Shown one piece after another: positions 5,049 to 45,536 of a DNA stretch of 64,000 bases. This DNA comes from Ignavibacteriota bacterium (GTDB lineage: Bacteria; Bacteroidota; Ignavibacteria; UBA10030; BY39), in assembly GCA_003327435.1 (NCBI GenBank), contig QOQV01000006.1, positions 110,065 through 174,064 of the forward strand, in the 5' to 3' direction. How positions within the stretch are numbered: position 1 is the stretch's first letter; every line of letters begins with the position of its first letter. Made by a program: the position numbers and the translations under genes. Under the pieces are notes generated by a model. It was not told the DNA's origin and did no database searches. It saw only the letters and a list, made by a program, of their open reading frames with translations.

Positions 5049-6896
5049 ATGGAAATCCTTTTTAGAGATAAATCTTTAATTCCAATCTGGAATAAATTAC
5101 TGAATGGCGAGAGATTAACTTTTGATGATGGCCTTGCACTTTTCAGGACAAATGACCTGATATCACTTGGTAAGATGGCTAATTGGTTCAGTTATCAGAA
5201 AAGTGGTGATGCGGTTTATTTTGTTCTAAATCGCAAGATTGAACATACAAATATATGTGTATTGTCCTGTAAATTTTGCGATTTTGCTAAAAAGAAAGGT
5301 GAACCAGGTGCATATGAGATGACTACCGAAGAAATTCTTTCCAAATTATCATCTGGTATCAGGGAAGTACACATCACCGGAGCAATGCCACCGGACTGGA
5401 AATGGGAAAGGTATCTTGATATAGTTCAATCTATTAATGATAAGTTTCCAGAGATTGATATAAAAGCATATACAGCTGTCGAGATAGATTTTTTTCATAA
5501 GAAATTTAAAAAGTCGATCGAGGAAATACTAATTGAGTTGAAGAATGCTGGTTTGAAAACAATGCCTGGAGGTGGTGCTGAAATATTTTCAGAGAGAGTT
5601 CGCCGACTTTTATTTAATCAAAAAATTGGTGAAAAATCCTGGCTGGAAATCCATAAAACTGCACATCGACTTGGTATACCAAGTAATGCAACTATGCTTT
5701 ATGGACATATAGAAACTCTTGAGGAAAGAGTAAAACACCTTATCAAGTTGAGAGAAGCTCAGGATGAAACTGGAGGTTTCTTAACTTTTATACCACTTGC
5801 ATTCCAACCTGGTGATACAGGTATTAAACCAAAAAATAATTTTACTTCCGCAATCGATGACCTGAAAACAATTGCAGTAAGTAGATTGATGTTGGATAAT
5901 TTCCCACATATAAAAGCGTATTGGGTCATGTTAACTGAAGAAGTTGCAGCAATCGCCTTAAATTTTGGAGCAGATGATATTGATGGTACGGTCGGTGAAG
6001 AGCACATCGCACACGATGCGGGTGCTATATCCCCAATGAAATTAGCTCAGGACCGTATAATCAAGATTATAAAAGAAGCAGGTAAGATTGCTGTGGAAAG
6101 AGATGTGTTCTATAATCCTCTTAAAATCTATGGAAGGAATATTATTGGTAAAATCCCATATTTAAATTCCATTCCTATTTATCATAATCTTAAAATTGAT
6201 TCATATTTTACTTTACCACTTTTCCCACACCGACTTGGTGAGATGATGAGCAATGGATATATAGATGCTGGTTTAATTTCTCTTGTTGACTATCTTAATA
6301 ATAAAGAAAAATTAAATTTATCAAGGTGGTGCCTATCGAGTCGAGAAAAAGTACAAAGTGTTTTACTTTTCTCAAAATATAAATTGGAAGAACTGGAAAA
6401 TAAAAAAATAGGCATCACAGACGAAACCTCAACATCAGTTAAACTTTTGAAAGTAATTCTTGAAAAAAAATATAAAATTAATGCTTTATTTGAAGAATTC
6501 CATCAACCGAAAATTAGCTTTCAGGAATTTGATGCTGTGCTTCTTATTGGGGATAATGCATTAAATAAATATAAAGCTCAAAATCCGGAATTTAATTACA
6601 AATTCGATTTAGCTGAAGAGTGGTTTCAATGGCAAAATCTACCATTCGTTTTTGCAGTGTGGGTAGAAAGAAAGGATTTGCTGCCTAATTTGTCTGATGA
6701 TATTATAAAAACTGTTGAGTTGAACATTCAAAAAAATTTTGATGAATTATCAGCTATTGTAAAACAGTACAGGTTTGGTGTGAAATTGACAGATGAAGAA
6801 ATAATCGAATATTTGAAAGGTTTTAATTACAAAATCGGTGATGAAGAATTGTCTGCGATAAGAAAATTTGAAGAATTAATAAGGGAAACGAAATGA
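5049..6896 (+). CDS. mqnE-mqnA: Fusion of aminofutalosine synthase (MqnE, radical SAM) and chorismate dehydratase (MqnA)
   Basis: One uninterrupted 615-residue frame encodes two consecutive menaquinone enzymes. Residues about 1-358 are MqnE: radical SAM CxxxCxxC at C70/C74/C77 (ICVLSCKFCDF), the MPGGGAEIF and NATMLYGH motifs, and the family end ERDVFYNPL. Residues about 365-615 are MqnA, starting with IIGKIPYLNSIPIYHNL and containing GYIDAGLISLVDYL, KVQSVLLFSK and TSVKLLKVIL. MqnA dehydrates chorismate to 3-[(1-carboxyvinyl)oxy]benzoate, and MqnE joins that product to SAM-derived adenosyl, so the fusion pairs producer and consumer. The enzymes are normally separate proteins of about 270 and 370 residues. 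The gene overlaps mqnC by 4 bp. Confidence 0.9.
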   Translation: MEILFRDKSLIPIWNKLLNGERLTFDDGLALFRTNDLISLGKMANWFSYQKSGDAVYFVLNRKIEHTNICVLSCKFCDFAKKKGEPGAYEMTTEEILSKLSSGIREVHITGAMPPDWKWERYLDIVQSINDKFPEIDIKAYTAVEIDFFHKKFKKSIEEILIELKNAGLKTMPGGGAEIFSERVRRLLFNQKIGEKSWLEIHKTAHRLGIPSNATMLYGHIETLEERVKHLIKLREAQDETGGFLTFIPLAFQPGDTGIKPKNNFTSAIDDLKTIAVSRLMLDNFPHIKAYWVMLTEEVAAIALNFGADDIDGTVGEEHIAHDAGAISPMKLAQDRIIKIIKEAGKIAVERDVFYNPLKIYGRNIIGKIPYLNSIPIYHNLKIDSYFTLPLFPHRLGEMMSNGYIDAGLISLVDYLNNKEKLNLSRWCLSSREKVQSVLLFSKYKLEELENKKIGITDETSTSVKLLKVILEKKYKINALFEEFHQPKISFQEFDAVLLIGDNALNKYKAQNPEFNYKFDLAEEWFQWQNLPFVFAVWVERKDLLPNLSDDIIKTVELNIQKNFDELSAIVKQYRFGVKLTDEEIIEYLKGFNYKIGDEELSAIRKFEELIRETK

Positions 6897-29619: not shown

Positions 29620-30351
29620 ATGGTAAAAGAAGCAACTGCAACATTACATTACGGATTTCAGGAACTTCGTAAGTTATACAATCGATATGCTGGTATTGCT
29701 TTGGCAATTGCTGTGTCACTTCACTTGAGTATTATTGGAATATATTATCTTATTGAATACCTTGGCGAAGAAGAAGAACCAGTATATACTATGCGTGTCA
29801 TTAAATTATCTGAATTAGGTCCACCACCTTCAATTACTAACACAGAAACTGCACCTCAATTGGCTATTTCTGCTCCAACTGCTAAGCCAACGATTGGTGT
29901 GCCAGTTCCAGTACCAGATGCTGAAGTCAGCCCTGAACAAACACTTGCCACACAAACTGAAATGAGTCAGCAAGCAAGTCCAATTGTTTCTGATCTTGGA
30001 GATTTGGGTGGCGGTGGAGTCCAAATCGAACAGGATATAAAAATTGAAGATGAAGGTCCACCACCAGATTTTGTACCAGTCGAAAAACAACCAGTTCCAG
30101 TAAAGCAAGTCACACCTGTTTATCCAGAACTTGCACAGCGTGCCCAAATGGAAGGAACTGTCTGGGTAAAAATCTGGGTCGATAAAGAAGGTAAGCCCAA
30201 AAAGGCAGTTGTCATTAAAAGTGATGCCGAAATATTTAATCAGGCAGCGATAGATGCTGCAATGCAATGGGTATTTACACCCGCAATTATGAATAATGGA
30301 CCTGTGGCTGTTTGGGTGGCAATACCATTTAAATTTAAACTTAAGAATTAA
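29620..30351 (+). CDS. tonB: TonB-family energy transducer
   Basis: A 243-residue protein with one N-terminal membrane helix (GIALAIAVSLHLSIIGIYYLI), a proline-rich periplasmic spacer (PTAKPTIGVPVPVPDAEV) and a C-terminal TonB domain (PVYPELAQRAQMEGTVWVKI, then AAIDAAMQWVFTPA). It transfers proton-motive energy from ExbB/ExbD to outer-membrane receptors. No TonB-dependent receptor gene is in the window. Confidence 0.93.
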   Translation: MVKEATATLHYGFQELRKLYNRYAGIALAIAVSLHLSIIGIYYLIEYLGEEEEPVYTMRVIKLSELGPPPSITNTETAPQLAISAPTAKPTIGVPVPVPDAEVSPEQTLATQTEMSQQASPIVSDLGDLGGGGVQIEQDIKIEDEGPPPDFVPVEKQPVPVKQVTPVYPELAQRAQMEGTVWVKIWVDKEGKPKKAVVIKSDAEIFNQAAIDAAMQWVFTPAIMNNGPVAVWVAIPFKFKLKN

Positions 30352-43097: not shown

Positions 43098-43664
43098 ATG
43101 GCTACAACTTCAGATTTTAGAAATGGTTTAACCATTCGAATGGATGGTGAAATTTGGACAATTGTTGAGTTTCAGCATGTTAACCCAGGCAACTGGCGTG
43201 CTTTTGTTAGAACAAAACTTAAAAATATTAAAAGTGGAAAAGTAATTGAAACTCGTTTCAGAGCTGGTGAAACAATAGATATTGTTAGAATCGAAAGAAA
43301 AGAATATCAGTTTTTATACCACGATGGAACATCACTCATATGTATGGATAAGGATACATATGATCAAATCTCAGTACAGGAAGATGTTGTTGGCGAAGGT
43401 AGCAAATATCTTAAAGATGGTGAGAATTTGGAAATTTTGTTCAATGGAAACGAAATAATTGGTGTAGAACTTCCAATAACTGTAGAATTAGAAGTAATAG
43501 AAACTGTACCAGGAGTCAAAGGTGATACAGCAACTGGTGGAACCAAACCCGCAAAAGTTGAAACAGGGGCTACTGTAAATGTTCCGCTATTCATAAATGA
43601 AGGAGATATTATTAAGGTAGATACCCGTACAGGTGAATACTTAGAAAGAGTAAAAACTAAATAA
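43098..43664 (+). CDS. efp: Elongation factor P
   Basis: Relieves ribosome stalling at polyproline. The 188-residue, three-domain protein starts TTSDFRNGLTIRMDGEIW and ends TRTGEYLERVKTK. The loop that reaches the peptidyl-transferase centre reads HVNPGNWRAFVRTKL. By position, the residue that is Lys34 in E. coli EF-P (PGKGQAF) is Asn32 here, with Arg34 two places on, so the usual lysylation or 5-aminopentanolylation site is missing. It leads an operon with accB and accC, a common arrangement. Confidence 0.96.
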   Translation: MATTSDFRNGLTIRMDGEIWTIVEFQHVNPGNWRAFVRTKLKNIKSGKVIETRFRAGETIDIVRIERKEYQFLYHDGTSLICMDKDTYDQISVQEDVVGEGSKYLKDGENLEILFNGNEIIGVELPITVELEVIETVPGVKGDTATGGTKPAKVETGATVNVPLFINEGDIIKVDTRTGEYLERVKTK

Positions 43665-43685
43665 ATAACCATCTAAGGTGATGTG

Positions 43686-44168
43686 ATGGATTTAAATTAT
43701 TTGAAAAAATTAACAAAAATACTGGTTGAATCCGGTGTTTCAGAGATAGAGATAGAAGAAGAGGGATTAAAGGTTCGCATTGCTAAACATTCACAAAACA
43801 GTACCATAGTACAACCTCAAGTGGTGCAACCTCAAGTGATTCAACCTACTCAACCTCAGGTTGTTGAAAGACAGGTTCAAAATGTAGCTCAACCAGCTAT
43901 TGAAACAAAGGTGGAAGAAACAAAGAAATTTCATGAGGTTAGATCTCCGATTGTTGGAACATTTTATCGCGCACCTGCCCCAGATGCTGATCCTTATGTT
44001 GAAGTTGGAAAAATTGTCAATAAAGGCGATGTTTTATGCATAATCGAAGCAATGAAGTTAATGAATGAAATTGAATCAGATGTTTCAGGTCGCATTGTAA
44101 AAATCTTGGTTGAAAATGCACAACCAGTTGAATATAATCAGGTTCTTTTTTTAATTGAGCCAGCATAA
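43686..44168 (+). CDS. accB: Biotin carboxyl carrier protein of acetyl-CoA carboxylase
   Basis: A 160-residue carrier protein. N-terminal helical part, a Gln/Pro/Val linker with QPQV repeats, and the C-terminal biotinyl domain with [12 protein letters not shown], where the lysine is biotinylated. It carries CO2 from AccC to the carboxyltransferase for malonyl-CoA synthesis. I prefer ATG 43686, since AAGGTG lies just upstream; the ORF track starts one codon earlier at GTG. Confidence 0.94.
43812..43865 (+). repeat. 15-bp tandem repeat in the accB linker
   Basis: CAACCTCAAGTGGTG, CAACCTCAAGTGATT, a 9-bp partial unit, then CAACCTCAGGTTGTT. They encode [13 protein letters not shown] and QPQVV. 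The repeat is in frame and could vary in copy number, changing linker length. Confidence 0.7.
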
Positions 44169-44189
44169 TAATTAAATTCGGGAAATTCA

Positions 44190-45536
44190 TTGTTTAAGAA
44201 AATTCTTATAGCTAATAGAGGTGAAATTGCTTTAAGGATCATCCGTGTATGTCGTGAACTCGGAATTAAATCTGTTGCAGTTTATTCTGAAGCCGATAGG
44301 GAATCGCTCCATGTAAAATTTGCTGATGAAGCTGTTTGTATTGGTCCACCACCCAGCCGTGAAAGTTATTTGAACATTCCCAGAATAATTGCAGCTGCTG
44401 AAATTACCGGTGCAGAAGCAATCCATCCGGGTTATGGATTTTTAGCCGAGAATGCAAACTTTGCTGAAATTTGCACATCTTCGGGTTTAAAGTTCATAGG
44501 ACCGAGTGCCGATTCTATTAGTGCTATGGGAAACAAATCGCTTGCAAAGGAAACAATGAAAAAAGCCAATGTCCCGGTTATACCCGGTAGTGATGGTGTG
44601 GTAACAAAGCTTCAGGATGCAGTTGATATTTCAAGAGAAATAGGTTTTCCTGTTATAATCAAGGCAGTTGCAGGAGGTGGTGGTAAGGGAATGCGAATTG
44701 TAAGAGATGAAGCTGAACTTGAAAAGAATTTTATTATGGCTTCCACAGAAGCTGAAGCTGCTTTCGGAGATCCCGGTGTGTACATTGAAAAATATCTCGA
44801 ACAACCACATCATATAGAAATACAGGTATTTGGAGATAATTACGGAAATGTAGTTCATATGAATGAGCGTGATTGTTCAGTCCAGAGACGTCATCAAAAA
44901 TTGATTGAGGAATCTCCTTCGCCATTTATTAATGCTGAGGTTAGAAAGAAAATGGGAGAAGCTGCAATAAAAGGAGCTAAAAGTGTAAATTATCAGGGTG
45001 CCGGTACAATAGAGTTCCTCGTAGATAAAGAACATAACTTTTATTTTATGGAAATGAATACGCGAATTCAAGTTGAGCATCCGGTAACCGAACAAGTCAT
45101 TGGAAGAGATTTAATCAAACTACAAATTGAAATTGCAGCCGGGAAAAAGTTGGATCATAAGGTAAAAAATCCAGTTGGACACGCTATTGAATGCAGGATA
45201 AACGCAGAAGATCCGTCTAATAATTTTAGACCTTCACCTGGAGAAATTACTGGATTTCACCTTCCAGGAGGATATGGTGTAAGAATAGATACGCATTGTT
45301 ACGCAGGATATAGAATCCCGCCAAATTATGATTCTTTGATTGCAAAATTGATTGTTTACGCTCCAGATAGGAAAAGTGCTATTGATAAGATGGCAGCAGC
45401 GCTCGAAGAGTTTACAATTGAAGGTATTCATACAACTATACCATTTCATAAAAAAGTCATGAAAAACGAATTATTTAGAGCTGGAAAATACGATACATCT
45501 TTTTTAGATAATATCATTTTAACAAATAAGGAATGA
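44190..45536 (+). CDS. accC: Biotin carboxylase subunit of acetyl-CoA carboxylase
   Basis: A 448-residue ATP-grasp enzyme. It starts [18 protein letters not shown], with [41 protein letters not shown] and [14 protein letters not shown], all diagnostic for biotin carboxylase. The length equals E. coli AccC. The start is TTG; no ATG precedes the conserved first strand. It lies 21 nt after accB and 3 nt before gcvH. Confidence 0.96.

Follow-up and report, generated by a model that had tools for sequence, protein, structure and literature searches.

The efp gene examined here raises the question of how elongation factor P (EF-P) may work when asparagine stands where the modified lysine usually lies; for such Asn-tip (N-type) proteins the classical answer, a modified lysine, cannot apply, since the lysine is missing. 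We analyzed the gene within a window of 64,000 nucleotides from an Ignavibacteriota bacterium (contig QOQV01000006.1, positions 110,065 to 174,064 of the forward strand) and searched the rest of the genome, which is 98.6% complete. The open reading frame contains no internal stops. Its product scores 257.5 bits against NCBIfam TIGR00038 (cut-off 185.8; residues 3–185 of 188 covered) and 69.4 against PF01132 (cut-off 27), has relatives in the PDB at an E value of 5e-61, and is conserved in sequence over its entire length. A Foldseek comparison of the AlphaFold model gives TM scores of 0.90 (T. thermophilus EF-P) and 0.86 (E. coli EF-P on the ribosome). Judged by family scores and predicted fold, the product is a complete, three-domain EF-P that is ordinary in length and fold. 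The features discussed below are collected in Table 1.

Table 1 Features of the window, with positions counted from its first nucleotide
Feature	Position	Strand	Basis
efp, elongation factor P, Asn-tip type, 188 aa	43098..43664	+	Open frame, TIGR00038, PDB relatives, Foldseek
Loop NPGNWRA, codons 29–35, seven residues between beta strands 3 and 4	43182..43202	+	Gapless alignment to KPGKGAA/KPGKGSA; model
Asn32, at the modified-lysine position (E. coli K34)	43191..43193	+	Gapless alignment; Asn in 87/191 collected EF-Ps
Arg34, two past the tip	43197..43199	+	Arg in 87/87 Asn-tip vs 2/91 Lys-tip EF-Ps
Arg53, second type-specific arginine	43254..43256	+	Arg in 84/87 Asn-tip EF-Ps; Thr in 85/91 Lys-tip EF-Ps
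accB and accC, directly downstream of efp	43683..45536	+	Gene names read from sequences
TonB-like protein with two PPP motifs (GPPPSI, GPPPDF)	29620..30351	+	Name read from sequence

The segment HVNPGNWRAF aligns without gaps to the solved EF-Ps of Clostridium thermocellum (HVKPGKGAAF) and S. aureus (HVKPGKGSAF). The modified lysine thereby corresponds to Asn32, the first lysine to Asn29 and the glycine to Trp33, and Arg34 follows the tip by two residues. Both statements of a first-pass annotation made from the letters alone, that asparagine replaces the usual lysine and that an arginine follows two residues on, are borne out by this alignment, which rules out a register with Arg34 at the tip. 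In the model, the seven-residue loop is flanked by strands 18–28 and 36–43. With asparagine in place of E. coli K34 and proline two residues upstream, the protein belongs to the Asn-tip class as delimited in the passages considered here of the 2019 survey by Volkwein et al. (PMC6544042). The tryptic peptide covering residues 15–34, MDGEIWTIVEFQHVNPGNWR, has a computed mass of 2427.14 Da. Contamination, a single-genome artefact and a sequencing accident are ruled out, as the same loop occurs in a genome of the same genus and in many relatives.

We collected 191 EF-Ps from a phylum sample, from contigs of named genomes and from further families. As inclusion depended on similarity to the window protein, the tip residues found (Asn 87, Lys 91, Gln 11, Arg 2) are not population frequencies. 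All 87 Asn-tip proteins fit [T/N]PGN[L/W/K]R, their loops being TPGNLRAF (55), NPGNWRAF (29), TPGNKRGF (2) and TPGNWRAM (1). By record title they come mostly from Ignavibacteria, Kapabacteria and Chlorobi, with some Bacteroidota MAGs and one Calditrichota. A nucleotide pattern written for the loop, although it overlooks some genuine cases, matched 83 of 396 phylum genomes, and its reversed control matched none. The Asn-tip class is thus no isolated oddity: Chlorobi have it, and so does the majority of the Ignavibacteria and Kapabacteria relatives sampled. Most of the N-type relatives searched have a single EF-P, which must then serve them as the general factor. The best explanation of these data is that the present organism, too, has the Asn-tip protein as its main EF-P.

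The class itself is already known. In the passages of the 2019 survey considered here, asparagine accounts for 2.23% of EF-P tips, always with proline at −2 (PMC6544042), and it is among the tip residues listed in PMC11611912. The first-pass annotation had held that its reading would be refuted if a large subfamily sharing this loop had been described; this applies in part, the Asn tip being described at 2.23% and found lineage-wide here. The same survey passages share the Asn tip and the proline with our protein and contain neither the full loop signature, Arg34 and Arg53, nor a taxonomic home; Chlorobi are not mentioned in them, and the protein assayed there was an E. coli K34N mutant rather than a native Asn-type EF-P. 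In the main texts of the open-access literature, no work on an Asn-tip EF-P in its native form came to light, and searches that combined EF-P with Ignavibacteria, Chlorobi or Bacteroidetes returned nothing relevant.

The residues that accompany the tip form a companion signature. Position 34, invariably arginine in the Asn-tip class, varies among the 91 Lys-tip proteins; position 33 is leucine (55), tryptophan (30) or lysine (2) in the former and glycine in 88 of the 91 latter; position 29 is threonine or asparagine, never lysine, in Asn-tip proteins compared with lysine in 90 of 91. Residue 53, which lies outside the loop, is arginine in just one Lys-tip protein, and in all 11 of the Gln-tip paralogues described below. 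Taken together for 180 proteins, 84 combine Asn, a bulky residue 33, Arg34 and Arg53, 89 combine Lys, a small residue 33 and other residues at 34 and 53, and 7 show something else. On the tree, about four changes are required per trait, and co-occurrence of the four traits comes down to two independent pairs on well-supported branches, too few for a sign test to reach significance. With only these two pairs the statistics do not separate functional coupling from descent, and much of the association may be shared descent. In the best tree, Lys-type proteins of some Ignavibacteria families are nested inside the N-type; a topology with one N-type clade is not significantly worse (p-AU 0.199), and we do not claim reversions to lysine. 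One protein placed among the Asn-tip sequences (genome G128, L163:201-761; loop TPGKGRAS) has a Lys tip together with Arg34 and Arg53 and is possibly an intermediate or a reversion. Thermodesulfobacterium-like EF-Ps (L077:8001-8549, L089:422-970, L090:929-1477) have a Lys tip without proline at −2, in the loops KVSKNQPT and KVSKTQPV.

We then compared the protein and its genome with the known EF-P types. Lysine-type EF-Ps (the E. coli EpmABC type and the B. subtilis YmfI, or 5-aminopentanol, type) share the fold, the seven-residue loop and the proline at −2 but have the tip lysine that is absent here, where tryptophan also replaces the following glycine. The EpmA (genX) model has its best match in this genome at 262 bits, below the cut-off of 286.9, in a protein of 512 aa that is LysRS by its sequence; across 42 genomes nothing exceeded the cut-off, the matches being LysRS and other synthetases. 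The best genome-wide match to EpmB scores 245 against a cut-off of 369; the same protein stays below the cut-off for lysine 2,3-aminomutase (486 vs 525) and exceeds that of the KamA family. We rejected this KamA-like aminomutase as an EpmB: its closest models are KamA and AblA, and its gene (L266:5297-9145, genome contig C1) sits beside one GNAT-like and two ATP-grasp-like genes. For YmfI, the best short-chain dehydrogenase (SDR) in the genome reaches 220 bits against a cut-off of 238. Arginine-type EF-Ps have a conserved loop arginine, as does the window protein, but in the latter the arginine lies off the tip and the proline at −2 is present. EarP (PF10093), the partner of the arginine type, has no match in 42 genomes, a result for which the control genomes, equally without a match, provide no positive control. 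The arrangement that the first-pass annotation had named as fatal to its reading, Arg34 rather than Asn32 at the tip with an EarP partner, is therefore not what the alignment and this search returned. Deoxyhypusine modification of the IF5A type takes an acceptor lysine and a deoxyhypusine synthase, a combination not found here. EfpL (YeiP) has a loop of more than seven residues with arginine at the tip, and its models score 116 and 129 bits on the window protein (cut-offs 264 and 216). The earlier statement that no EpmA, EpmB, YmfI or EarP gene is visible in the window thus holds and extends to the genome at family cut-offs, with the caveat given for EarP.

The neighborhood of efp is likewise shared between types. 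The gene accB lies beside efp at 24 of 31 Asn-type loci and at 22 of 49 other loci, and accB, accC and gcvH occur as neighbors in both Asn- and Lys-type loci. Because many Asn-tip and Lys-tip efp genes have the same neighbors, we find no dedicated modification gene linked to efp.

On these grounds we favor, at a probability of roughly 0.55, the reading that N-type EF-P works without a tip modification, with Arg34 and perhaps Arg53 supplying positive charge. The protein would bind the ribosome as other EF-Ps do and would relieve Pro-Pro stalls without a modified tip; the bulky residue 33 may make the loop stiffer or shift its position, and the modified lysine may be replaced by Arg34, perhaps together with Arg53, as conservation and published precedents suggest. 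The step that no known modification enzyme acts draws on the genome-wide searches for EpmA, EpmB, YmfI and EarP. According to the survey passages, E. coli EF-P K34N is inactive (PMC6544042), and therefore asparagine alone is not enough. EfpL is active with an unmodified Arg33, and stiffened loops are a further precedent for unmodified function (PMC11611912); the analogy would extend to the window protein in its unmodified state, although the EfpL loop is longer and its arginine stands at the tip. Of the possibilities offered by the first-pass annotation, that the protein may work unmodified or that Arg34 may be modified or take over, the last would be compatible with the invariance of this residue (87/87).

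An enzyme of an undescribed family would escape the searches that were run; it might modify Arg34 or Asn32, much as the tip arginine in Pseudomonas EF-P is modified by EarP. We regard this as rather unlikely. The invariant arginine would suit it, and according to the survey passages more than half of bacteria are without a known EF-P modification enzyme (PMC6544042); against it, no candidate gene is linked to efp, EarP is unmatched in the 42 genomes (again with no positive control), the arginine lies two residues past the tip, and Asn-tip loops retain the proline that arginine-type EF-Ps lack. More doubtful still is the bolder form, in which an as yet undescribed enzyme family, common to Ignavibacteria, Kapabacteria and Chlorobi, places a chemically new modification on Arg34 or Asn32 of N-type EF-Ps. 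A named candidate comes from the same survey passages, which suggest deoxyhypusine synthase (DHS)-like proteins as possible modifiers of Lys- or Asn-tip EF-Ps (PMC6544042). Of the genomes sampled, 46 of the 47 with an Asn tip and 29 of the 42 others contain a homologue (PF01916), and the copy in this genome (contig C15) keeps the catalytic lysine motif SWGK. We nevertheless hold it highly improbable that they act on Asn-tip EF-P: the acceptor lysine is missing, the association depends on two independent pairs, homologues are also present in Lys-tip genomes, and by curated score the protein of this genome is a homospermidine biosynthesis protein (571 vs 450), deoxyhypusine synthase models remaining below their own cut-offs. 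The family scores and the presence in Lys-tip genomes thus weaken the published idea. In Thermus, a product is made from agmatine en route to homospermidine (PMC10981699), and a title cited in PMC8503589 reports that a DHS homologue is required for homospermidine in Anabaena. A third group of DHS homologues falls outside the assigned families.

The genome also encodes a second EF-P (L002:561-1139) with a Gln tip (GSGQMQGF) and Arg53. Its contig, C20, measures 2429 bases and matches the window in GC content (33%), and a same-genus genome holds a counterpart of the protein at 84% identity. The Asn-tip protein might accordingly have lost polyproline rescue and left that work to the Gln-tip paralogue, an account that the presence of the second gene in both genomes would allow. 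We consider it improbable: the paralogue is patchy (11 of 60 genomes searched, this genome and 10 others), whereas N-type EF-P is almost always present and in many cases stands alone. This patchiness points to the Asn-tip protein as the general factor, and the latter is conserved along its full length. The fixed signature N32, L/W33, R34 and R53 leaves two options that can be tested directly across the lineage: the role of the modified lysine has passed to arginines near the tip, or these proteins bear a modification still to be discovered.

The Gln-tip gene is followed by a lipoprotein-like and a phosphatase-like gene, an order kept in the same-genus genome (L206). In another Asn-tip genome, G196, the second EF-P (L152:201-758) carries Arg53 and has arginine at its tip (QTGRGGAY); no EarP match was found there. 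PPP motifs occur in the window's own proteins, and likely EF-P clients are therefore present; the TonB-like protein of Table 1 is a possible one, by its motifs. Elsewhere in the window, positions 5049-6896 encode a 615-aa protein that by sequence resembles a fusion of an MqnA-like domain with a radical SAM enzyme of the futalosine pathway, and an MqnC-like gene adjoins it.
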